Origin: Candidatus Altarchaeota archaeon
GTDB taxonomy: Archaea; SpSt-1190
NCBI GenBank assembly: GCA_030590165.1
Contig: JAUUZA010000022.1
Location: forward strand, 1-10,355
DNA length: 10,355 nt
Reading direction: 5' to 3'
The notes below the pieces were generated by a model that did no database searches, was not told the origin of the DNA, and saw only the letters and a list, made by a program, of their open reading frames with translations. Shown here piece by piece: positions 2 to 10,355 of this stretch (its first letter is position 1; each line of letters begins with the position of its first letter). A program made the translations under genes and the position numbers.

Positions 2-1090
2 ACTGTGGAGAAAGTCATAAATTTTGTTACGTCCTCTCCTGCAAAAACAAATATTGTTGAATTCAGTGGTGGTGAACCTCTTTTGAATTTTGAGGTTTTG
101 AAGGCTGCGGTAAAGTTTGCAAAAAAAATTTCAGATGAAAAAAACAAAAAAGTTGGGTTTGCAATGATTCATAATGGGACTAATTGGGATGAGGAAAAAA
201 TGAAATTTTTTATTGGTGAAAAAGTAGGCATTTGTTTTTCACTTGATGGGCCTAAAGATTTACATAATAAACACAGACCTTTTCTTAATGGGGAAGGAAC
301 TTATGAAGAGGTTTCAAAGTGGATTGGCAAGTTTAGAAAAGTGAGATTCAAGGGTTTGAATGCCATTCCAGTTATAACTAAATATTCTCTTTTAAGGGGG
401 AAGGAAATTGTGGATGAATATCTTTCACAAGGATTTAGAGTTATTCGTTTCAAATACCTTTCATATTTTGGTAGGGCTGCATCTATTTGGGATGAAATAG
501 GATATACTTCTGAAGAATTTTTGAAAGCATGGAAAGAAGTTATTGAGTATATGTTTGAATTAAACAAAAGGGGAATTCTAGTTATTGAAGGTGTTACGCA
601 AGTATTGGCTCAAAAGATTTTTTGGAATCGCGACCCAGGATTCTGTGAATTACATATGCCTTGTGGGGCTGGGCTTGAACAGCTTGCCTATGCCCCAAAT
701 GGTGATGTTTATACTTGTGATGAAGGAAGGATGTTTGAAGAATTTAAGATAGGTGATGTTAATCAAAAATATTCTGAGGTGATGAAAAATTCTCTCTTGA
801 GAGAAATGAGTATTGCTTCAAGTGGTTTTTTGAATTCATGCGATAATTGTGTTTTCAAGCCCTTTTGTGGAACTTGTCCACTGGAATCGTACAAAATTCA
901 AGGGAGTATTTATTCAAAAATACCGCTCGATAGACGATGCAAAATTCACAAGGGTATGCTTGAATATCTTTTCAATAGAATGTTGGAAGATAATAAATTC
1001 AAGAAAATGATAAAAAACTGGGCAGAGACAAAGAATTTGATTGAATTGAAAAGAAAAAAAGGATTTATGAGTTCCTCAATGCTTTATTAA
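2..1090 (+). CDS. hxsB: HxsB-like radical SAM/SPASM peptide maturase (5' end outside window)
   Basis: This is the C-terminal 361 or so residues of a radical SAM peptide-modifying enzyme. The frame is open to the window edge, and the GTG at 5 is not a credible start because the CxxxCxxC cluster motif must lie upstream, probably about 80-100 residues away. Numbering from that GTG, the SAM-binding GGEP motif is at 22-25, followed by SLDGP (79-83). A complete SPASM set follows: Cys220 in CGAG, Cys238 in YTCDEGRM, Cys279/282/288/291 in CDNCVFKPFCGTC, and Cys312. SPASM domains bind auxiliary iron-sulfur clusters used in ribosomal peptide modification. The order of EFSGGEPLLNF, EIVDEYLSQGF, GYTSEEFL and DVYTCDEGRM matches my memory of His-Xaa-Ser maturase HxsB, and the next gene encodes His-x-Ser repeats. 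The rSAM/SPASM class is near certain; the HxsB assignment is likely but from memory. Confidence 0.85.
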   Translation, partial: TVEKVINFVTSSPAKTNIVEFSGGEPLLNFEVLKAAVKFAKKISDEKNKKVGFAMIHNGTNWDEEKMKFFIGEKVGICFSLDGPKDLHNKHRPFLNGEGTYEEVSKWIGKFRKVRFKGLNAIPVITKYSLLRGKEIVDEYLSQGFRVIRFKYLSYFGRAASIWDEIGYTSEEFLKAWKEVIEYMFELNKRGILVIEGVTQVLAQKIFWNRDPGFCELHMPCGAGLEQLAYAPNGDVYTCDEGRMFEEFKIGDVNQKYSEVMKNSLLREMSIASSGFLNSCDNCVFKPFCGTCPLESYKIQGSIYSKIPLDRRCKIHKGMLEYLFNRMLEDNKFKKMIKNWAETKNLIELKRKKGFMSSSMLY

Positions 1091-1124: not shown

Positions 1125-1469
1125 GTGAAAGTTTCAAAAAAACTCAAGAGGTTTTTCAAGGAAGAAAAAGCGTTTTTTGATAAAAATAAAATTGTGACTG
1201 CGGTTTCTTTAATTTCCATAGCGTCAATGACTTTATTGCCTTCAAAGGCGATAGTTGGTGAGTATGATGTAGGGACTAATGTGATTTCTACTTCTCACTC
1301 TCATCACGGTTCTCATAGCACTCACGCCACTCATGGTTCTCCCGGCTCTCATGCTACTCACAGCTCTCATGCTACTCACAGCTCTCATGCTACTCACAGC
1401 TCTCATGCTACTCACAGCACACATAATACCTGTTCATGTGGTTGTGTTGGTCGAATTGGATCGGCATAG
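1125..1469 (+). CDS. HxsA-like His-x-Ser/Thr repeat precursor peptide, exported
   Basis: This 114-residue protein is the probable substrate of the neighbouring rSAM enzymes. Residues 1-22 are Lys-rich. Residues 23-38 are a hydrophobic signal segment, and Ser40-Lys41-Ala42 fits a signal peptidase site, leaving about 72 mature residues. From His58 to His100 a histidine recurs every third residue, 14 times in 15 positions (only residue 73 is Pro), with Ser or Thr usually in third place. The chain ends with Cys103, Cys105 and Cys107 (CSCGC) then VGRIGSA. The GTG start at 1125 is preceded by AGGT at 1112-1115 with a 9-nt spacer and by a TATA box. The architecture matches HxsA of the His-Xaa-Ser system, next to HxsB-like and SPASM enzymes. 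The Cys tail is not something I recall for HxsA. Metal binding is possible but inferred from composition only. Confidence 0.85.
   Translation: MKVSKKLKRFFKEEKAFFDKNKIVTAVSLISIASMTLLPSKAIVGEYDVGTNVISTSHSHHGSHSTHATHGSPGSHATHSSHATHSSHATHSSHATHSTHNTCSCGCVGRIGSA
1345..1416 (+). repeat. Four perfect 18-bp tandem repeats in the His-rich core
   Basis: The unit GCTCTCATGCTACTCACA occurs four times without a mismatch, at 1345, 1363, 1381 and 1399. Each unit encodes six residues (two His-x-x triplets), so gain or loss of a unit keeps the reading frame. Perfect identity, including at synonymous positions, points to recent slippage or unequal crossover. The tract is also much richer in C than the surrounding coding DNA. 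Confidence 0.97.
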
Positions 1470-1486
1470 CTGTTGAGATTATGGTT

Positions 1487-2548
1487 ATGAATTTTGATAT
1501 TAAATCGCTGAGTTTTTGCTTGACTGATTCATGTAATCTTAATTGTAAATTTTGTTATGCCGATGCTAAAAAAAAAGGAAGTTTTCTTGATTATGTGAAG
1601 GCCAAAAAATTTTTGGAATTTTTTTCTAAATTTGCAATTCCGCGCGTTTCAATAAATTTCATTGGAGGCGAACCAACTCTTTATCCACAATTATTGGACC
1701 TTATTGATTTTGCAAATGAAAATTTAATAGACCCATTTATACAAATATCAACTAATGGTGTTATTTCTTTGGAGAAACTTAACAAACTTTTAGAAAAAAA
1801 AGTTTATTTTTATTTGAGTTTTGAGGGTCTTCCTGAATTTCAAGATTTTGAAAGACCTTTTCATGATTCCAGAGGTTCAAGTGAAATAGTAATTAAAACA
1901 ATTAAAACTATAATTTCTAATGACCCCGATAAACTTTGGCTTAGAATTAATTATTCTACAAATAAAATTGGGAAAGAAAAAAAAATAGCTGAATTTATAA
2001 AATCTCTTGGAGTTAAAAATGTGTCACTTGGAGTTCTCAACACTCTTGGTAGGGGAAAAGCTTATGAAAATGTTAATGTTACTAAATGTTCAGAGGAAGT
2101 ACCAAAACTTGCGGACGCTTTGTTGAAGGAAGGAGTTAATGTGAAGTTGGCAAGACTTTATCCGTATGCAGAAGTTTGTCGTCCTTCTTGTAAGGCGGGT
2201 ATTTCTTCTTTCTCTATAACTGTTGATGGGAAAGTTGCCACTTGTCATAAAATTATTTCTACGTCAGACATTGATAAAAATCACAAAATTTTTGTGATTG
2301 GGGATATTAACAACGAGGTAAAAATTGACCAAATTCGTTTGAAGGTGTTTAATGATTTTGCAAAAATACTTCCTGAAAAATGTATTTCTTGTGATATTTC
2401 CATTCATTGTGGAGGTTGTCCATTTGAAAAAATATTCGTTAAAGAAAAAGTAGTTATGAGTAAGTGGTTTTGTGATTTCAAATATATTGGGACGAAAGCA
2501 TTTAAGAAATATTTTCCATTGGGATTGAAGAGAAATATAAAGAATTAA
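1487..2548 (+). CDS. Radical SAM/SPASM peptide maturase, first of a tandem pair
   Basis: This is a 353-residue radical SAM enzyme with a C-terminal SPASM domain. From Met at 1487, the [4Fe-4S] cysteines are Cys16, Cys20 and Cys23 (CNLNCKFC) and GGEP is at 60-63. SPASM cysteines are 235 (CKAG), 253, 299/302/308/311 (CISCDISIHCGGC) and 329. It begins 17 bp after the precursor stop, so co-transcription and action on the His-rich peptide are likely. The frame is open back to an ATG at 1436, but that would overlap the precursor and add an improbable Trp/Cys-rich lead. I prefer 1487, with GAG at 1475-1477 as a weak ribosome site; ATG 1481 is also possible. The protein is a paralogue of the next gene, with a short stretch of near-identical DNA. 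The exact reaction (thioether, epimerisation or ring formation) cannot be read from the sequence. Confidence 0.93.
   Translation: MNFDIKSLSFCLTDSCNLNCKFCYADAKKKGSFLDYVKAKKFLEFFSKFAIPRVSINFIGGEPTLYPQLLDLIDFANENLIDPFIQISTNGVISLEKLNKLLEKKVYFYLSFEGLPEFQDFERPFHDSRGSSEIVIKTIKTIISNDPDKLWLRINYSTNKIGKEKKIAEFIKSLGVKNVSLGVLNTLGRGKAYENVNVTKCSEEVPKLADALLKEGVNVKLARLYPYAEVCRPSCKAGISSFSITVDGKVATCHKIISTSDIDKNHKIFVIGDINNEVKIDQIRLKVFNDFAKILPEKCISCDISIHCGGCPFEKIFVKEKVVMSKWFCDFKYIGTKAFKKYFPLGLKRNIKN
1817..1907 (+). repeat. 91-bp block shared with the downstream paralogue (copy 1)
   Basis: This stretch matches 2902-2992 at 90 of 91 positions; the first 70 bp are identical and the one difference is T1887 versus C2972. 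It encodes a segment of the radical SAM barrel that includes SFEGLPEFQDF and FHDSRGSSE. DNA on both sides differs at many synonymous positions, so the block looks like recent gene conversion or recombination. Confidence 0.95.
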
Positions 2549-2550
2549 AT

Positions 2551-3609
2551 GTGGAATTGATGTTTGGTATGTTGAATCATGAGGTGCAATGGCTTGGAAT
2601 ATCTTTAGTTGATTTTTGTAATTTGAATTGTAAATATTGTTCTGTAAATGCTAATCAGAAAGGGGAGGTTCTTGAGTTTTCTAAAATTGAAAGTTTTTTG
2701 GTTTTCTTTTCAGAATATGCATGTCCGGGAACAAGAATTTTATTAACAGGGGGAGAGCCTACACTCCATCCTCACTTATTGAGAATAATTGATTTAATTG
2801 AAGATTATTTTATAGACCCGTTAATTCAAATTGGTACTAATGGCGTAATTTCTCCTGAAACTCTTGATGCCCTCTTAGATAAACGAGTTAGTTTTTACTT
2901 AAGTTTTGAGGGTCTTCCTGAATTTCAAGATTTTGAAAGACCTTTTCATGATTCCAGAGGTTCAAGTGAAACAGTAATTAAAACAATTAAAAAAATAATT
3001 TCCAGAGACCCGAATAAATTAGTGATTAGGATTAACCATTCCACAAATAAAATAGGGAAAGAAAAAGAAATGATTTTATTTTTGAAATCTCTTGGTGTCA
3101 AAAAAATATCGTTGGGAGTTCTTTCTCCTGATGGAAGGGGGGAGAATTATCCATTTGTTGATTTTGTGAGATGTTCTAGTTTTATTCCTTCATTTACTAA
3201 ACTGTTAGATGAAGAAAATTTTAGTATTTGGTTTTCTAAGTTTTCTCCTAGAAAAAAAAATTGGCCCTCTTGTGGTGCCGGAATTGAGTCTTTTTTTCTT
3301 TCAGTAGATGGTAAAATTGTTACATGTCAAAATATTTTGCGTGCATCAGACCTTGACAAAAATCACAAAATTTTTGTGGTTGGGGATGTAAATGAAGGGG
3401 TGAAAATTGATTCAGTCCGCCTGAAAAAATTTAATGACTTTTCTAAAATGATTCCTGAAAAATGTGTTTCTTGTAAGATTATGAATTATTGTGGGGGTTG
3501 TCCATTTGAAAAAGTCATAATTGAAGGAAAGTCTATTATGAATAAGGAATTTTGTGAGGCAAGTAAACTATTAATTGATGGTTTGTTGAAACTTTATCCT
3601 AAAAAGTAG
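2551..3609 (+). CDS. Radical SAM/SPASM peptide maturase, second of a tandem pair
   Basis: This is a 352-residue paralogue of the preceding enzyme, starting 2 bp after its stop, so the two are surely co-transcribed. Cys23, Cys27 and Cys30 (CNLNCKYC) bind the catalytic cluster and GGEP is at 67-70. SPASM cysteines are 241 (CGAG), 259, 305/308/314/317 (CVSCKIMNYCGGC) and 335. The two proteins align without large gaps, so this is a tandem duplication that has kept all cluster ligands; both copies appear active. Divergence is greatest between the barrel and the SPASM domain (about residues 190-240), where substrate choice may lie (inference). The start is uncertain: GTG 2551 is closest to the upstream stop, but ATG 2560 or ATG 2569 would give an N-terminus closer to the paralogue's. 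Confidence 0.93.
   Translation: MELMFGMLNHEVQWLGISLVDFCNLNCKYCSVNANQKGEVLEFSKIESFLVFFSEYACPGTRILLTGGEPTLHPHLLRIIDLIEDYFIDPLIQIGTNGVISPETLDALLDKRVSFYLSFEGLPEFQDFERPFHDSRGSSETVIKTIKKIISRDPNKLVIRINHSTNKIGKEKEMILFLKSLGVKKISLGVLSPDGRGENYPFVDFVRCSSFIPSFTKLLDEENFSIWFSKFSPRKKNWPSCGAGIESFFLSVDGKIVTCQNILRASDLDKNHKIFVVGDVNEGVKIDSVRLKKFNDFSKMIPEKCVSCKIMNYCGGCPFEKVIIEGKSIMNKEFCEASKLLIDGLLKLYPKK
2902..2992 (+). repeat. 91-bp block shared with the upstream paralogue (copy 2)
   Basis: This is the partner of 1817-1907, at a constant offset of 1085 bp. The two copies are in the same frame and encode the same protein segment, apart from one Ile-to-Thr change caused by the single mismatch. Shorter exact matches recur further on, for example around 2280-2300 and 3360-3380, but with more substitutions between them. 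Confidence 0.95.
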
Positions 3610-3636: not shown

Positions 3637-4326
3637 ATGAATGTGAAGAAATATTTGTTTTTGTTATTAATTCCTTTCTTGGTTGTTGGTTTTTTAAAAA
3701 TTACTCAAAAGTCAGCAGATGATATAATAATTAAAGTGTATGAAGAAAAAATAAATGAAGGATTCAAAGAGTATTTTGATGAATTTGGCACTGATGTTTC
3801 TTCTGAAAATATAGAATATGCTTGGATTCTAGAAGATTATGGAATTGATTTTACAATATATCCTGACCTTGGGGGTTCCAAAATTCTAAAATATTGGGAT
3901 TATATTGGAAATTATAGTAAAGATTTGAATTGTAGTAAATATATAGGACCTGAATACATAAGGTGTATTACAATGAGGCTCAAAGCTGGAGCAGACAGTG
4001 AAACTTTATTTGAAGATCTTTCTAATGTAAACCCATCTTCATATTATGAGATGCATTTAATGACATATGCGGTTGCTTTGAAAGCCCCATCTGGAGATTT
4101 TGTTACTGCTTCCCAAATTATTTGTGAGAAATTCTCAGAATTTTATTCTGAGGAGGAACCTGAAGAGTTGTGTGAATATGTTCGAAAATCAAATTTACTC
4201 TGGCTCTGCTTTAAAAATGATTTAGGGTTTCGTGGTATCGCATACAGTGAACCCAAAAATCTTGAGGAATTTACTTGTTATTACAGAGCTTATAAAAATT
4301 TTAAGCATACAAAATTTGTAGAATAA
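3637..4326 (+). CDS. Unknown membrane-anchored or secreted protein with six cysteines
   Basis: I do not recognise this 229-residue protein. Residues 1-5 are basic (MNVKK) and residues 6-20 are strongly hydrophobic, giving an uncleaved N-terminal anchor or a signal peptide. There is no clear signal peptidase site, so an anchor is slightly preferred. The rest is soluble, acidic and rich in aromatic residues, with Tyr in many places. Cys99, 110, 163, 179, 191 and 214 could form three disulfides outside the cell. No metal-binding or catalytic motif stands out. It sits 27 bp after the tandem SPASM enzymes on the same strand with a good ribosome site, so it probably belongs to the same transcript. 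It could help export or bind the modified His-rich peptide, but that rests on position alone. Confidence 0.8.
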   Translation: MNVKKYLFLLLIPFLVVGFLKITQKSADDIIIKVYEEKINEGFKEYFDEFGTDVSSENIEYAWILEDYGIDFTIYPDLGGSKILKYWDYIGNYSKDLNCSKYIGPEYIRCITMRLKAGADSETLFEDLSNVNPSSYYEMHLMTYAVALKAPSGDFVTASQIICEKFSEFYSEEEPEELCEYVRKSNLLWLCFKNDLGFRGIAYSEPKNLEEFTCYYRAYKNFKHTKFVE

Positions 4327-4381: not shown

Positions 4382-5335
4382 ATGCGACGTCTTGATTTAA
4401 AAGTTGGTTATGCTTGTAATCTGCGTTGTAGACATTGCGTTCAGGGAAATAAAAGGGAGCTTTTTCCTAGTAAGTCGATTGAGCAAATAAAGAGTGATTT
4501 GAAAGAGGTATTTTCAAAAGGCGTTGTTGAAGTAGTATTTACGGGAGGCGAGCCAACAGTCCACAAGAATATTCTTGAAGCTGTGAAGTTTGCCCGTGAT
4601 TTGGGTTTCAAACTTATACAAATACAGACTAATGGTCGCATGTTTTCTTCTAAGAATTTTACTGAGAAAATGGTAGAGGCAGGGATGACTGAATTTTCAC
4701 CTGCTTTGAATGGGCACATTCCAAGTCTCCACGATTATTTAGCTAGTGTTCCTGGTGCTTGGAAACAAACAGTTAGGGGCATTATGAATGTTAAAGAATA
4801 TGGGTTAAACATAATTTCAAATTCTGTTGTTAGTAAACCAAATTATAGATTTTTAAATAAACTTGCGACCCTCTTGGTTAAACTTGGTGTTGACCAATAT
4901 CAATTAGCATTTGTTCACGCTGGAGGAAGGGCGTGGGAAAATTTTGACTCAATTGTTCCAAGAGTTTCGTTGGCGGCGCCTCACATCCATAGGGGATTAC
5001 AAATTGGTATTGACGCTGGACTTCCTGTTATGGCGGAGGCAATGCCATATTGTTTAATGCGGAATTATGAAAAATATGTTTCAGAATTATACATACCTTC
5101 ATCAGCCGTGTACGAAGTTGGTTTCAGAACTGAAAATTATGAAAAATGGAGAGTTAATGAAGGAAAGTGGAAAGGGGAGAGGTGTAAATCCTGCGCTTTT
5201 TTTAATATTTGTGAAGGTCCGTGGAAGGAATATGTTGAAAGAATAGGGCCTGAAGAGTTTATTCCCATTCCTGGAAAGAAAAAAACGAAGGCAGATATTT
5301 TAGGATTTAATAGCAAGGACAATTTCACCAAGTAA
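4382..5335 (+). CDS. Radical SAM enzyme, HxsC-like C-terminal signature
   Basis: This 317-residue radical SAM protein has Cys12, Cys16 and Cys19 (CNLRCRHC), GGEP at 55-58 and QTNGRMF at 82-88. Near the middle it has HDYLASVPGAW (117-127), a pattern seen in the COG0535 maturase group. The C-terminus holds Cys224 (MPYC) and Cys268/271/277 (CKSCAFFNICEGP) followed by Tyr284, Gly289 and a PIP end. These four cysteines are the right number for one auxiliary [4Fe-4S] cluster in a shortened SPASM-like or twitch domain, instead of the seven of full SPASM. The CxxCxxxxxCxG tail and HD...PG motif recall HxsC, but I am not certain. Three other genes to the right share the layout. Its 3' end overlaps the convergent gene at 5300 by 36 bp. 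The substrate is unknown; the His-rich peptide is the obvious candidate. Confidence 0.88.
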   Translation: MRRLDLKVGYACNLRCRHCVQGNKRELFPSKSIEQIKSDLKEVFSKGVVEVVFTGGEPTVHKNILEAVKFARDLGFKLIQIQTNGRMFSSKNFTEKMVEAGMTEFSPALNGHIPSLHDYLASVPGAWKQTVRGIMNVKEYGLNIISNSVVSKPNYRFLNKLATLLVKLGVDQYQLAFVHAGGRAWENFDSIVPRVSLAAPHIHRGLQIGIDAGLPVMAEAMPYCLMRNYEKYVSELYIPSSAVYEVGFRTENYEKWRVNEGKWKGERCKSCAFFNICEGPWKEYVERIGPEEFIPIPGKKKTKADILGFNSKDNFTK

Positions 5336-5716
5336 TTCTGAAGCAAAGAAAGGGGTATCTGAATTTTCTTGAAGATTGTCACATATTTCATATTGATATT
5401 TTTGACCTTCAAATGGGAGAGGGATTGATACATATTCTTCCACTTCTGCTTTTTCTTTCTCACTTAAATTTTTTGAACAAACAACGATAGCAAAAGTGAA
5501 ATCTTTGTTCAGGTAAATTTTAGTACACATATTTGAAAGAGGTTCCGCAACTAAGAAGTTAAAACTACCTATTTTTGTACCTGGTGGAAATTTGTTAAGA
5601 ATAAAAGTGTGTGGGGTTTCTATTTCAGATTTTGGACTGTAATTGTAAAACATTGTTAACCCTGAAATCAAAATCAAGGGAACCAAAATAAGCAAAATTT
5701 CTTTTAAATGTTTCAC
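5300..5716 (-). CDS. Small single-pass membrane protein, unknown function
   Basis: This minus-strand gene fills the gap between two rSAM genes. From a GTG at 5716 it encodes 138 residues: MKHLKE, a transmembrane helix at about 7-24 (ILLILVPLILISGLTMFY), then an outside domain of about 110 residues with Cys64, Cys80 and Cys112. The frame stays open to an ATG at 5764, but that start would overlap the divergent rSAM gene and add a polar 16-residue lead, so I prefer 5716. GGGTGA upstream is rather distant (13 nt), while TTATTAAA on this strand at 5743-5736 fits a leaderless start. The hydrophobic helix and normal composition argue that this is real coding DNA. Its 3' end overlaps the upstream rSAM gene by 36 bp. 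I recognise no family. Confidence 0.68.
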   Translation of the reverse strand: MKHLKEILLILVPLILISGLTMFYNYSPKSEIETPHTFILNKFPPGTKIGSFNFLVAEPLSNMCTKIYLNKDFTFAIVVCSKNLSEKEKAEVEEYVSIPLPFEGQKYQYEICDNLQENSDTPFFASELLGEIVLAIKS

Positions 5717-5722
5717 ATAATT

Positions 5723-5730
5723 CTTATATT
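5723..5730 (+). promoter_or_regulatory. TATA-like box for the rSAM pair at 5752
   Basis: CTTATATT is centred about 25 bp before the ATG at 5752. No ribosome site precedes that ATG, so a leaderless transcript for the two coupled rSAM genes is likely. The box lies within 10 bp of a TATA-like element on the other strand. Confidence 0.5.
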
Positions 5731-5735
5731 CACCC

Positions 5736-5743
5736 TTTAATAA
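5736..5743 (-). promoter_or_regulatory. Possible divergent TATA-like box for the small membrane protein
   Basis: On the minus strand this reads TTATTAAA and is centred about 24 bp before the GTG at 5716. If real, it and the plus-strand box at 5723-5730 form a very compact divergent promoter in which the two initiation complexes would compete for the same DNA. In AT-rich DNA such matches also occur by chance. Confidence 0.3.
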
Positions 5744-5751
5744 TTCTTTCG

Positions 5752-6681
5752 ATGAAGAATGCATATCTAGAAATTATTGAAAATTGTAATTTAAAATGTT
5801 CTTTTTGTTCTAGGGGTGACAGAAAAGGCATTTACGATAAAAAGTTTTTAGAAGGCATAATGAAAATGTATTATGATAAAGGATTTAAAAAATTAATTTT
5901 TACTGGTGGTGAACCGCTACTTCATCCTGATTTAGATGAATTAATTAGTTTTGCAAGGCAGTTTGAATTTGAACTTGCAATGCAAACTAATGGTATTTTG
6001 TTGACAAAAAATAGAGTAAAGGAACTTAAAAAAGCAGGACTTGACCAAATTTTAATATCCATTCATTCACATCTTTCTTTTGTAGAAGATGAAATAATGT
6101 CTGGAAAGAATGTTTTGGAGAAACAATTGAAGGGGCTTGTTAATGCAAATGAGGAAGGAATCACTTGTTTTTTAACTTTAGTCATTACTAAACATAATTA
6201 TAAGAAATTTCCTGATTTTTGTGAATTTATGATTTCAAAATATCCTTTTGTCAAACATTTTTCGTTTAATTTTGTTGATCCTGTTGGGAGAGCCAAAGGA
6301 AATAAAAATGAAGTCCCAAAATATGTTGATATTGAAGTGCCTTTGGGTAGGGCACTTTTCAAATTAAAAAAAGCTAATAAAACGTTTAGGGTGGAGAGGG
6401 TTCCATTGTGTTATATGCTGGAGTTTGCAGAATATTCAACCGAACTTAGAAGAATTATTACTAAAGAACCTTCAATAGTTTATAGAGAAGAAGGGCGAAT
6501 TCATTATGTTGGGGATTACTTTAAAGCTGAATATATGAAAGGAAAGGCGTGCGAAGCATGTTGGCTTAATAGAATTTGTCCGGGAGTAAATAAAAAATAT
6601 GTAAATATTTATGGGATGAGTGAAGTTTATCCAATTTTTATTAAACCAGATAAGATTGTTGAAAAAGCAGGTGTTGATTAG
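5752..6681 (+). CDS. Radical SAM enzyme, first of a translationally coupled pair
   Basis: This is a 309-residue radical SAM protein. Cys12, Cys16 and Cys19 (CNLKCSFC) form the catalytic cluster site and GGEP is at 52-55. Its C-terminus has Cys220 in VPLC and Cys267/270/276 (CEACWLNRICPG), then Tyr283, Gly288 and Pro294. This is the same four-cysteine auxiliary layout as the genes at 4382, 6681 and 8140. Residues 173-191 (FNFVDPVGRAKG to VPKY) match the minus-strand enzyme (FNLFDPIGQAEK to LPKY) closely, making those two the nearest relatives here. Unlike the other three it lacks the HD-x-L-x(3)-PG motif in the middle of the barrel, having MSGKNVLEK instead, which may mean another substrate. 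Its stop TAG shares one base with the next start. The ATG at 5752 is chosen because it gives the usual distance to the first cysteine. Confidence 0.9.
   Translation: MKNAYLEIIENCNLKCSFCSRGDRKGIYDKKFLEGIMKMYYDKGFKKLIFTGGEPLLHPDLDELISFARQFEFELAMQTNGILLTKNRVKELKKAGLDQILISIHSHLSFVEDEIMSGKNVLEKQLKGLVNANEEGITCFLTLVITKHNYKKFPDFCEFMISKYPFVKHFSFNFVDPVGRAKGNKNEVPKYVDIEVPLGRALFKLKKANKTFRVERVPLCYMLEFAEYSTELRRIITKEPSIVYREEGRIHYVGDYFKAEYMKGKACEACWLNRICPGVNKKYVNIYGMSEVYPIFIKPDKIVEKAGVD
6669..6673 (+). promoter_or_regulatory. Shine-Dalgarno site inside the upstream gene, for the GTG at 6681
   Basis: AGGTG lies within the last codons of the preceding rSAM gene, 7 nt before the GTG at 6681. It decides the start of the next gene and, with the TAGTG overlap of stop and start, indicates translational coupling. 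Confidence 0.65.
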
Positions 6682-8177
6682 TGGAAGAAAGATTTTTCAA
6701 GAAAGCAATAATACTTACAGGTTTTGGTTGTAATCTTCATTGTATATTTTGTCTTCAGGAAAAAAGAACACCTGCATTTTTTACTAAAGAAAAGATATTA
6801 AAAGAAATTTTGCAGAGAAGGCAGGAAGGTGCTGATTGGTTAATATTAACGGGAGGTGAAGCTACCATTCACCCAAATTTTTTTGACTTCATCGCTTTTG
6901 GAAAAAAAATTGGATACGAGAGGATACAAGTAATAACAAATGGTAGGATGTTTTCAAGTGAAAGATTTGCTAGTATAGCGGCGATAGCTGGACTTACTGA
7001 AGAAACAGTAAGTTTTCACGGTTCCACTCCTCAAAAACATGATGCCTTGACGAGAGTTCCTGGAAGTTTTGAAGATGCAAAAAAAGGAGTAAAAAATTGT
7101 AATAAATATGGAATTAAGCTTAGTTTCAATACGGCAATAAATAAGCTCAATAGTTTAGACCTAGGGAATATTGTAAAGTTTATTCACAATGACCTTGGGT
7201 TTGAGCATGTTGATTATGATATAATTGGGACGGCTCCAAGTGGTGGTGCTTGGAAACATAAACTCCTCCCAAAACATGATGACGTAAAACAGGGGATAAA
7301 ACAAGCGTGTGAATTTGGGGAAAGGAACAATATTGTAATTTGGGTTACAAGAACTCCAATTCAAGATATGCCCAAGGGATATGAATATCATAAAGAACCG
7401 TGGGAAGTAATAACTCATGACACACTTGCTATGTGGGATATTATATGGCGAGAGGACAGAATTTGTGATTTGTTGAAGTGTGAATTTTGTGAGGCAGGTC
7501 CCTTCTGTTTTCACCTAAAAAATATTGTTAAAAATAAGAATGCAGGAAAATTGGATTATGTTCAAGGTAAGAATATGTTTCCTATTTCAAAGAAATGGAC
7601 AAAAAAGTTTCGTGTCGAAACACTAGAAGAAATAAAAGAAGTTAAGAAAGAAGGGTTTATTCCCTTTGTGAGGGTTGTTTTTGATGGTCTTAATAATAAA
7701 TGGGAGGAGGTAGTAAAAAAGATTGAAGATTTTGAAAAAACAGGAATTGATGTTGAACTTGAGTTTCAAATTAATAAAAAGTCAATAGAGAGGATTGAAG
7801 ATGCAAAAAAATATAAGGTTTTATTTTCTCCCACAAATCCATACAAATATGTTAAGTATAGTTTTGAAACTTCAAATATACTTCATGACACAACAGATTC
7901 ACTACTTCCTTTATGTAAGATTTTTGAATTAGTGAAGGGTCCTTGGATTAATGTTCCTCTTTGTTTGAAGGAGGGAAAATCAAAGGAGTATTGGGTGAAT
8001 CTTGATGATTTTAATAAGGAAGGAAAACCAATTCCAAGAGAGGTTGTTAATAGAATGGTTGAAGACGTAAGAGTTTATCCTTGGGAGTGTGACAAATGTT
8101 CACTTAAAGATAACTGTCCTGGTTTCTTTGGGGATTATGTCAAACTTTTTGGTTTCGATAAAGTTTTCGTTCGTTAA
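6681..8177 (+). CDS. Enlarged radical SAM enzyme with two C-terminal cysteine clusters
   Basis: At 498 residues this is about 190 longer than its three relatives. Cys17, Cys21 and Cys24 (CNLHCIFC) bind the catalytic cluster; the SAM motif is GGEA (58-61) instead of GGEP. HDALTRVPGSF is at 120-130. A first cysteine group follows at Cys262, 267, 270 and 276 (CEFCEAGPFC). An inserted region of about 130 residues without recognised motifs leads to a second group, Cys428 (VPLC) with Cys470/473/479 (CDKCSLKDNCPGFF), and the usual Tyr486/Gly491 tail. So it could carry three iron-sulfur clusters in total. The N-terminal barrel is complete and the C-terminal half lacks a CxxxCxxC, so this is an extension or partial domain duplication and not two full enzymes. 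The start is fixed by AGGTG and coupling to the previous gene. The 3' end overlaps the convergent gene by 38 bp. Confidence 0.9.
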   Translation: MEERFFKKAIILTGFGCNLHCIFCLQEKRTPAFFTKEKILKEILQRRQEGADWLILTGGEATIHPNFFDFIAFGKKIGYERIQVITNGRMFSSERFASIAAIAGLTEETVSFHGSTPQKHDALTRVPGSFEDAKKGVKNCNKYGIKLSFNTAINKLNSLDLGNIVKFIHNDLGFEHVDYDIIGTAPSGGAWKHKLLPKHDDVKQGIKQACEFGERNNIVIWVTRTPIQDMPKGYEYHKEPWEVITHDTLAMWDIIWREDRICDLLKCEFCEAGPFCFHLKNIVKNKNAGKLDYVQGKNMFPISKKWTKKFRVETLEEIKEVKKEGFIPFVRVVFDGLNNKWEEVVKKIEDFEKTGIDVELEFQINKKSIERIEDAKKYKVLFSPTNPYKYVKYSFETSNILHDTTDSLLPLCKIFELVKGPWINVPLCLKEGKSKEYWVNLDDFNKEGKPIPREVVNRMVEDVRVYPWECDKCSLKDNCPGFFGDYVKLFGFDKVFVR

Positions 8178-9069
8178 GTAATGAAGAATCAGTTATAGGC
8201 ATAATTTCTTCATCTCCGTAAATACTGAGGTATTTTTCCCAAATACCGTCACATTCTTCTTTTGCTATACATTTCTCACATCTTTTAAGGAAGATTTTTC
8301 CCCTTCTTATTTCTTCCTTATTTGGAATTTCCTTCTGATTTAAAATTATGAGTTCATAGTTCCCGGCATATTTTTTCAAAGAATTGCGTAGTATACATAG
8401 AGGTATTGAGATGATGCAGTTAGGAAGATTTTTTGAGTTTTGAATTCCTTTATTAAAATATTTTTCAACGTCTGTGTATTTTGGTAAAAGTATTTTGGCT
8501 TTTTTTTCTGCTTGCCCAATTGGGTCAAATAAATTGAATACGATTTGATCAACGTTTAATTTTGAAAAAAGCTGAAGCATTTCAGGAATATTTTTGTAAT
8601 TTTGTTTAGTAATTGTTGTTTGTGTGTCTAATCCAATATTTTTTATTTCTCTTATTTTTTTTACGATTATTAAACCTGATAGAACTTGTTTGAAACTTCC
8701 GGGAGTTCGAGTGAGTGAATCATGGGTGAAAGCGTCAGCTCCGTGAATTGAAATTTTAAATTTAGTGAGACCTGCATTCACTAATTTCTTGGCATAATTA
8801 GGAAGTGAGAGCATTCTTCCATTCGTCGTTATTTCAATATTTTTAAATCCAACTTTTTTTGCCATGGCAATCATTTCAAATAATTTAGGATTGAGAGTTG
8901 GTTCCCCAAGTGAAAAATCAATAATATCATAGGTTTTTGAAGCTTTTTTAAAATCTTGGAGGGTATGTTTAATTTTAGGTCGCTTTTGAGTTTCCATACA
9001 AAAAATACAATTATTATTACACCCTATTCCAGTTTGAACTGTAAATACTTTTTTTCGTTCATTCTTCAT
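8140..9069 (-). CDS. Radical SAM enzyme coupled to a surface protein gene
   Basis: This 309-residue radical SAM protein lies on the minus strand. Cys17, Cys21 and Cys24 (CNNNCIFC) are the catalytic cluster ligands. The GGEP motif is altered to SLGEP (53-57), losing one glycine. HDSLTRTPGSF is at 116-126. The C-terminal group is Cys225 (IPLC) with Cys264/267/273 (CEKCIAKEECDG), then Tyr280, Gly285 and a PI end, as in the genes at 4382, 5752 and 6681. The ATG at 9069 follows the TAG stop of the surface protein gene with no gap, so the two are co-transcribed and probably coupled. This suggests the surface protein or a peptide encoded upstream as its partner, or that the whole region forms one system with two arms. 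The 3' end overlaps the large convergent rSAM gene by 38 bp. Confidence 0.88.
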   Translation of the reverse strand: MKNERKKVFTVQTGIGCNNNCIFCMETQKRPKIKHTLQDFKKASKTYDIIDFSLGEPTLNPKLFEMIAMAKKVGFKNIEITTNGRMLSLPNYAKKLVNAGLTKFKISIHGADAFTHDSLTRTPGSFKQVLSGLIIVKKIREIKNIGLDTQTTITKQNYKNIPEMLQLFSKLNVDQIVFNLFDPIGQAEKKAKILLPKYTDVEKYFNKGIQNSKNLPNCIISIPLCILRNSLKKYAGNYELIILNQKEIPNKEEIRRGKIFLKRCEKCIAKEECDGIWEKYLSIYGDEEIMPITDSSLLNERKLYRNQKV

Positions 9070-10355
9070 CTAAATCATCTTTTCATCGAGAATAACCCCA
9101 AGTCCCATGAGTGCTGCGATGATTAAAAGGTCAATGAAAATTCGTCCAATTGTTAATCCTTGACCGATACTTTTTATTAAAGATTCGACTGTTTCTTCAA
9201 CAGTAAGTCCACCATAAGAAAGACGAACTGTAAATTCTTTTTGAGAAGGAGTGAAAGTGAATTTACCAAATGTATTTGTTGTATAATTCTCAATAGTACC
9301 GTCTTCATAAATTACTGAAACAATAAGGTCTTCAATTGGACCTAAGAGTGTTGAATTCACTAATACTATATATTCATCTTCAAATAATTCAACACTAAGA
9401 ATTATTTCTTCGATTGCGTTTTCTGCTTCGTCTGAACTTGCATTAATTCCTTTTATTGGTACTGTTGAACATTTATTTACTCCGTCTACTTTGGCACAAA
9501 GTGAGACGTCCCATTCATCTATTTTTAGTGGGCAAAAACTGAAATCGATATTAAGTTTACCTCCGACATTTAGATTATGAGGGAAGTTTATGTCTGATAA
9601 AAGTGAATAAGTAAGTTCTGAGAGAGAAAAACCTGATGCACTTGCGGCAGTAATTGGAGCAACAATTGAACCTGTATTTTCAACAGTAAATCTTACATCA
9701 CCACAGCTTCCGACATTGATTTCCTTTGAATTAGGAGCAGTTAGTGAAACAACTACGCTTTGTGGGGTAGCTGGTGGGGTGGTTGTTGTTGTGTCGTCAT
9801 CGTCGTCAGTGGTGGTGTCTTCTATAGTAACTTCTCTAATTTCAAATGCAACACCACTAATCCATTCTGCATCCGAAATGACTGAATCAGAATCTTCAAT
9901 TGTGAAAGTGTGGGGTTCAACACCTGCTGATCCACATTCACCTGAAGTTTTCCAAGTTTCAAGACATTCTTGATTTCCTGACAAATTGAAGTCTTCACAA
10001 ACATAAAGACAAAGTTTTTGTGAAGTACCGACACCTGTACCGCCTTCAAATTCTATACTAGCTGGTACTCCTGTTACTGAAAAATTGAAAGCAAATAAAT
10101 CTGTAACTGGTTCTGACCCCGGCATTTCATGGTATAAATAAGTAGTAATGTCTTTAGGGGTGCCTTTACCGTCTGCGCTGCCTTCGTAAAAGAAAGTGAT
10201 ACTTGGTTTATATGTTGAAATAGTTAGATTATGTTTAATATACCATTGATCAACTTGGAAGGTTGGCGTTTCAATTTCAATATTATAAGGGGCTGAAGTA
10301 GTTATTTTTTCCATACCCGAATCTTGATTTCTTGAATAGAAATCATCATCAGTAT
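9070..10355 (-). CDS. Surface protein with acidic/Thr linker and C-terminal membrane anchor (5' end outside window)
   Basis: The frame on the minus strand is open for 13 further codons beyond the ATG at 10314 to the window edge, and no ribosome site or signal peptide precedes that ATG, so the gene very likely starts outside. Counting from that Met, residues 1-160 are beta-rich with Cys102, 106, 117 and 127. A low-complexity linker of Thr and Asp follows (about 163-181, with a run of five Asp). Residues 185-290 resemble a CARDB or Ig-like fold (the NTGSIVAP segment is typical) with Cys204, 261, 273 and 282. A further beta domain (305-375) contains an NYT sequon, and a transmembrane helix lies at 391-408 before a short charged tail. 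Even cysteine numbers fit disulfides outside the cell. It is probably an archaeal cell-surface protein; a binding partner cannot be named. Confidence 0.85.
   Translation of the reverse strand, partial: TDDDFYSRNQDSGMEKITTSAPYNIEIETPTFQVDQWYIKHNLTISTYKPSITFFYEGSADGKGTPKDITTYLYHEMPGSEPVTDLFAFNFSVTGVPASIEFEGGTGVGTSQKLCLYVCEDFNLSGNQECLETWKTSGECGSAGVEPHTFTIEDSDSVISDAEWISGVAFEIREVTIEDTTTDDDDDTTTTTPPATPQSVVVSLTAPNSKEINVGSCGDVRFTVENTGSIVAPITAASASGFSLSELTYSLLSDINFPHNLNVGGKLNIDFSFCPLKIDEWDVSLCAKVDGVNKCSTVPIKGINASSDEAENAIEEIILSVELFEDEYIVLVNSTLLGPIEDLIVSVIYEDGTIENYTTNTFGKFTFTPSQKEFTVRLSYGGLTVEETVESLIKSIGQGLTIGRIFIDLLIIAALMGLGVILDEKMI

Follow-up and report, generated by a model that had tools for sequence, protein, structure and literature searches.

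The locus described here raises the question of whether a small peptide with histidine on a three-residue period, encoded among radical SAM (rSAM) genes, belongs to an HXS-type system, and whether such a system is truly archaeal. The HXS system (Haft and Basu, cited in PMC9062424) consists of HxsA, HxsB, HxsC and HxsD. The NCBIfam models for the system include TIGR03978 (HxsB), TIGR03977 (HxsC) and TIGR03976 (HxsD). The window analysed is an entire contig of 10,355 bp from a 724-kb genome (G000, 88% complete), which was compared with G001, G002 and G005, representing three other genera that are sister members of its archaeal family. Seven rSAM genes, the HxsB-like gene included, lie within the 10 kb, and the cassette is largely syntenic in the sister genera (Table 1). 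The G005 locus has the gene order of the window but a single PapB-like copy and no minus-strand HxsC-like gene, and in G002 a short contig holds part of the locus. An Rfam scan of the window gave no matches, and the G000 assembly contains no 16S rRNA.

Table 1 Features of the 10,355-bp window and the basis of each assignment
Position	Strand	Feature	Basis
2..1090	+	HxsB-like radical SAM/SPASM enzyme, 5' end missing at contig edge	TIGR03978
1125..1469	+	114-aa HxsA-like precursor made up of a leader with hydrophobic segment, an H-x-[S/T] repeat and a Cys tail	ORF; weak HxsA3/HxsA4 matches; conserved in G001, G002, G005
1125..1250	+	HxsA-like leader (residues 1-42) with basic N-terminus, KNK, a hydrophobic segment at 23-38 and PSKA as candidate cleavage motif	
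1296..1430	+	H-x-[S/T] repeat of 15 slots (residues 58-102; Pro in slot 73)	
1431..1466	+	C-terminal tail of HxsA-like peptide, three Cys (CSCGCVGRIGSA)	Read from sequence
1481..2548	+	Radical SAM/SPASM enzyme, PapB-like copy 1	NF047865; Pfam rSAM + SPASM
2551..3609	+	Radical SAM enzyme, PapB-like copy 2	NF047865; paralogy to copy 1
3637..4326	+	229-aa protein with N-terminal membrane segment, no family	
4382..5335	+	HxsC-like radical SAM enzyme; the one of the set that archaeal HXS loci share	NF038332 (HxsC4)
5300..5764	-	154-aa protein with N-terminal membrane segment	Same position in G002, G005
5752..6681	+	Radical SAM enzyme, general MoaA/HxsC-like	Orthologues in G002, G005
6681..8177	+	498-aa HxsC-like radical SAM enzyme with C-terminal extension	HxsC4; orthologue in G005
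8140..9069	-	HxsC-like radical SAM enzyme	HxsC4, HxsC; absent from G005 locus
9070..10353	-	C-terminal part of large Thr-rich surface-like protein, C-terminal membrane segment, N-terminus off contig	G005 homologue

The enzyme encoded immediately upstream of the peptide had been taken for HxsB in an initial annotation made from the sequence, and the NCBIfam search supports this. The protein matched TIGR03978 with an E value of 8.8e-92 and 308.3 bits over model positions 118-466 (349 of 466), a margin of 179 bits over the next model (129.5 bits), so that assignment to an unrelated SPASM family was not borne out. Its score lies below the curated cut-off of 370 bits, and its N-terminus is missing because the contig starts there; the missing part was not found elsewhere in G000. 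Full-length orthologues scored 370.5 bits in G001, over the cut-off, and 348.9 bits in G005, under it, and the window protein is 60% identical to the latter. Both orthologues contain the CxxxCxxC motif, which in the window would fall beyond the contig edge. In the HxsB tree, the family forms one clade (support 100) among archaeal sequences. The nearest solved sequences, 5wgg (a peptide-type rSAM enzyme) and anaerobic sulfatase-maturating enzymes, are in line with a predicted radical chemistry on peptide side chains. The hxsA start lies 34 nt past the hxsB stop, and hxsA directly follows hxsB in all four family genomes that have HxsB. A small HxsD-like gene is found upstream of hxsB in most loci, including G005, where the match appeared after iterative search; the gene at this position in G001 gave no significant match, and the corresponding position in the window is off the contig.

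The peptide gene itself starts with GTG. Its product matched HxsA3 (NF038309) with E 1.1e-4 and 21.9 bits (cut-off 65) and HxsA4 (NF038313) with E 0.003 and 18.4 bits (cut-off 55), and thus lies under every curated HxsA cut-off, while the G005 orthologue reached 50.0 bits against HxsA4 (E 4e-13). Like HxsA, the product is also a small protein with tandem His-Xaa-Ser/Thr repeats encoded beside hxsB. Together these matches support the earlier view of the peptide as HxsA-like, at scores short of formal membership.

Histidine occurs at residues 58, 60, 61, 64, 67, 70, 76, 79, 82, 85, 88, 91, 94, 97 and 100. Fourteen of these share one phase, as the initial annotation had described, with H60 as an extra, out-of-phase residue; the sole empty slot is residue 73, where the triplet reads Pro-Gly-Ser (CCC GGC TCT). 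The same annotation had noted Ser or Thr two residues past nearly all repeat histidines, and we counted 13 of 14 (8 Thr and 5 Ser), H58 having His at +2. When residues 55-114 were shuffled 200,000 times, no shuffle placed 14 His in one phase and one contained a run of nine His at +3. A pattern search of the 724-kb genome found no other HxS/T array of four triplets. Recent tandem duplication has produced some of the array, in which several copies of an 18-nt unit encoding HATHSS are identical at the DNA level; the comparison between genera is therefore the stronger evidence for selection. Histidine fills 14 of 15 in-phase slots in G000, 20 of 20 in G001, 21 of 21 in G002 and 19 of 19 in G005. 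Across the four genera, CAT and CAC are mixed at the His positions, and TCN, AGY and ACN codons all occur at +2. G001, G002 and G005 retain the H-x-[S/T] register with codons that differ, TCN/AGY serine switches included. As read from these codons, the register is under protein-level selection.

Ahead of the repeat, hydrophobicity peaks at residues 23-38 (Kyte-Doolittle mean 2.08, 15-residue window). The stretch is followed by PSKA, with Ile after the candidate cut; in the sister genera this position is taken by PGRA, PSWG and PSHA. All four family members share a DExAFFxKNKLV motif, a hydrophobic segment and then P[SG]x[AG]. Hydropathy and the sister-genus motifs thus favour the earlier proposal of a signal-like leader with a Ser-x-Ala site, the site being a candidate predicted from sequence. 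The leader plan resembles that of HxsA3 and HxsA4 (a basic stretch with an acidic pair, a hydrophobic segment and a small-residue site), but the motif differs, DExAFFxKNK in the window against FLxxEEGxISK. With repeats removed, hhalign of the family leader against 32 HxsA3/A4 leaders gave a probability of 91.5, and block shuffling gave 2 of 1000 for the window. A plain leader HMM search against all ORFs was not significant for the window (6.5 bits, E 3.3), so homology to the HxsA3/A4 leaders is called suggestive only. Elsewhere, three proteins of 500-550 aa (L044, 4104-5741; L056, 8676-10241; L066, 3311-4825) start with an HxsA3/A4 leader and have other or mixed cores, which suggests that this leader may be reused on varied substrates.

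Downstream of the peptide, the two PapB-like enzymes are 55% identical at the protein level. The best NCBIfam model for both is NF047865 (PapB), with 94.4 bits for 1481-2548 and 74.7 bits for 2551-3609 against a cut-off of 340; in the second copy Pfam SPASM is below its cut-off. An orthologue of 1481-2548 adjoins hxsA in G002 and G005. The two paralogues share about 99% DNA identity over about 75 nt (1826-1900 and a stretch near 2911-2985), which looks as if produced by recent gene conversion.

Three further rSAM enzymes have HxsC4 as their best model, just as HxsA3 and HxsA4 are best for the peptide. HxsC4 scores were 141 bits for 4382-5335, 120 bits for 6681-8177 and 192.7 bits for 8140-9069 (cut-off 500), the last also scoring 98.8 bits against HxsC (cut-off 267.9), so that no enzyme of the window reached a curated HxsC or HxsC4 score. 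The product of 4382-5335 shows 46-63% identity to genes beside hxsB in G002, G005, G007 and G089, and that of 6681-8177 is 53% identical to its G005 orthologue. The 229-aa protein has homologues in G002 and G005 only and matches no NCBIfam or Pfam family; its single-sequence AlphaFold model was poor (pLDDT 55). At the far edge, the partial protein encoded by 9070-10353 has a 1471-aa counterpart, 37% identical, at the corresponding end of the locus in G005. Thr-rich and surface-like, this large protein carries a C-terminal membrane segment and flanks the cluster in two genera (window 9070-10353; L026, 2-4417); it could be a partner or a display scaffold.

The archaeal origin of the system was confirmed through the syntenic G005 locus, whose contig carries aCPSF1 (over its cut-off), archaeal-type Rad50/Mre11 and ribosomal proteins L1 and L10. 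These housekeeping genes make the HXS-type system archaeal in this family and rule out bacterial contamination for the family. HxsB of at least 249 bits was found in 14 of 150 related genomes searched (that of the window included), eight of them over the curated cut-off. When named genomes were scanned, 80 loci were obtained, spread over Aenigmatarchaeota, Diapherotrites, Woesearchaeota, Nanoarchaeota and many bacterial phyla. In many of these archaea and bacteria, the surroundings of hxsB encode HxsA-like peptides that combine a leader, a hydrophobic segment and an A-x-A-like site; bacterial HxsA, too, commonly begin with signal-peptide-like segments, and a Woesearchaeota HxsA exceeds the NCBI HxsA4 cut-off (66.1 against 55 bits). 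The initial annotation had regarded HXS as essentially bacterial, a view that is not supported, given HxsB and HxsA with signal-like leaders in many DPANN archaea. Its claim that an exported archaeal precursor would be new likewise finds no support at the level of sequence databases, since such leaders are widespread. In the literature searched we found no paper describing archaeal HXS.

HxsC-like genes cluster with hxsB across phyla, and several of them surround hxsB in other archaea and bacteria as well, so the expansion is a theme and not unique to the window. Among the other archaeal loci (L034/L046, L038, L042, L045, L049, L067 and L074, from the four archaeal groups named above), all of which have HxsB, most encode an HxsA-type precursor with a signal-like leader, and several an HxsC-like orthologue of 4382-5335; L034 (G089) and L046 carry the same HxsA. 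Unlike these loci, the window has a duplicated PapB-like gene, two small membrane proteins and an rSAM order so far specific to its family. In addition, L117-L121 (IMG/VR, classed as viral) contain HxsA/HxsB/HxsC-like cassettes, near-identical Bacteroidales ones among them, and L101 (Prevotellaceae) has three HxsA-like precursors around one HxsB (5237-5986 and 8608-8844).

Compared with the HXS plan, the window agrees in an HxsB-like enzyme adjoining a peptide rich in His-Xaa-Ser/Thr, in HxsC-like partners and, in its relatives, in an HxsD-like gene upstream of hxsB. It departs from that plan in having up to four HxsC-like and two PapB-like genes, in HxsA and HxsC scores below curated cut-offs (at best 193 of 500 bits for HxsC4), and in a peptide with Thr as frequent as Ser at +2 and a Cys tail. 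The observation is real and archaeal, and it follows the HXS plan, although by score the HxsA, HxsC and PapB cut-offs are formally not reached; its distinctive part is the cassette of seven rSAM genes in 10 kb together with the C-terminal Cys tail.

Other HxsA members of the family also end in Cys-containing tails. For 41 peptides the downstream sequence was long enough to be scored: of the 15 with a Cys tail, 11 were directly followed by a further HxsB/PapB-like rSAM gene, as were 3 of the 26 without (Fisher p 1e-4 over loci). The association was tested on the very data from which it had been suspected. After related HxsB were collapsed at 60% or 50% identity, p was about 0.02; at 45% identity or below, at most four clusters were left and the test had no power. 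G002 was scored negative only because its ORF start had been placed too early, and the exceptions are L036, L041 and L117, and L054, L094 and L112. Several of the extra enzymes have no clear Pfam SPASM match. On the strength of this association we propose that the tail would be the substrate of the extra enzyme, a concrete and testable assignment. PapB, a ranthipeptide maturase, forms Cys-Asp/Glu thioethers (PMC9413430). The peptide of the window contains no Cys-x3-Asp/Glu motif and its tail has neither Asp nor Glu; the PapB reaction in its exact form is accordingly not expected.

From these arrangements we infer, with a probability of roughly two in three, that this small-genome archaeon has a divergent HXS-type system, in which an exported ribosomal precursor would be modified by HxsB, HxsC-like and PapB-like enzymes. 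The ORF at 1125-1469 would encode the precursor, whose first 42 or so residues may have two roles, as the leader that the modifying enzymes recognize and as the export signal. In the cytoplasm, HxsB, with the HxsD-like helper found upstream in relatives and with HxsC-like partners, would modify the His and/or the Ser/Thr of each H-x-[S/T] unit, and one or both PapB-like enzymes might act on the Cys-containing tail. The modified product would then be exported, cut near Ala42, and end at the cell surface or outside. It may be that only some of the seven rSAM enzymes work on this peptide. A bolder version, a two-zone archaeal RiPP in which HxsB and several HxsC-like enzymes process the H-x-[S/T] array, dedicated duplicated PapB-like enzymes process the Cys tail, and Cys tail plus extra rSAM form a recurrent second HXS module in archaea and bacteria, is conceivable, but we hold it as a tentative and rather doubtful extension.

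Other explanations draw on the same features. The peptide might be an exported His-rich protein that binds zinc or copper without modification, the nearby rSAM genes serving something else. His-rich arrays bind metals, and there are very weak matches to CopL (E 0.06, window) and ZrgA (E 0.07, G005 orthologue); metal binding alone, however, does not explain why the Ser/Thr at +2 is kept nearly as strictly as the His through codon switches, and the adjacency to hxsB extends from all four family genomes with HxsB to distant phyla, which makes this explanation unlikely. HXS-type modification could alternatively involve HxsB and one HxsC-like enzyme only, the remaining rSAM genes forming a second pathway such as surface-protein maturation. 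Many HXS loci do have one HxsB and one HxsC-like gene, and the large surface-like protein borders the cluster in both the window and G005. Yet a PapB-like gene immediately follows hxsA, most of the rSAM genes have syntenic copies in G002 and G005, and clusters with several HxsC-like genes recur around hxsB elsewhere; we give a separate pathway a small chance.

If slippage had simply expanded a low-complexity sequence that serves no particular function, the identical 18-nt copies and the one slot decayed to Pro would be accounted for. Such an origin sits badly with an array unique in its genome whose register and Ser/Thr are kept in four genera with different codons. A slippage-only origin was rejected on the codon switches between genera, and a functionless repeat is very improbable.

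The divergent HXS-type system proposed here belongs to a wider group, as HXS is widespread in small-genome archaea and archaeal HxsB are diverse. Judging from the literature searched, the chemistry of HXS has yet to be solved: the papers searched contained no HXS product structure and no chemistry of HxsA or HxsB. Compact archaeal loci with many rSAM genes and a clean triplet substrate would be good material for this problem. If the seven rSAM genes of this locus serve one exported peptide, that peptide probably matters at the cell surface or in contact with a host.
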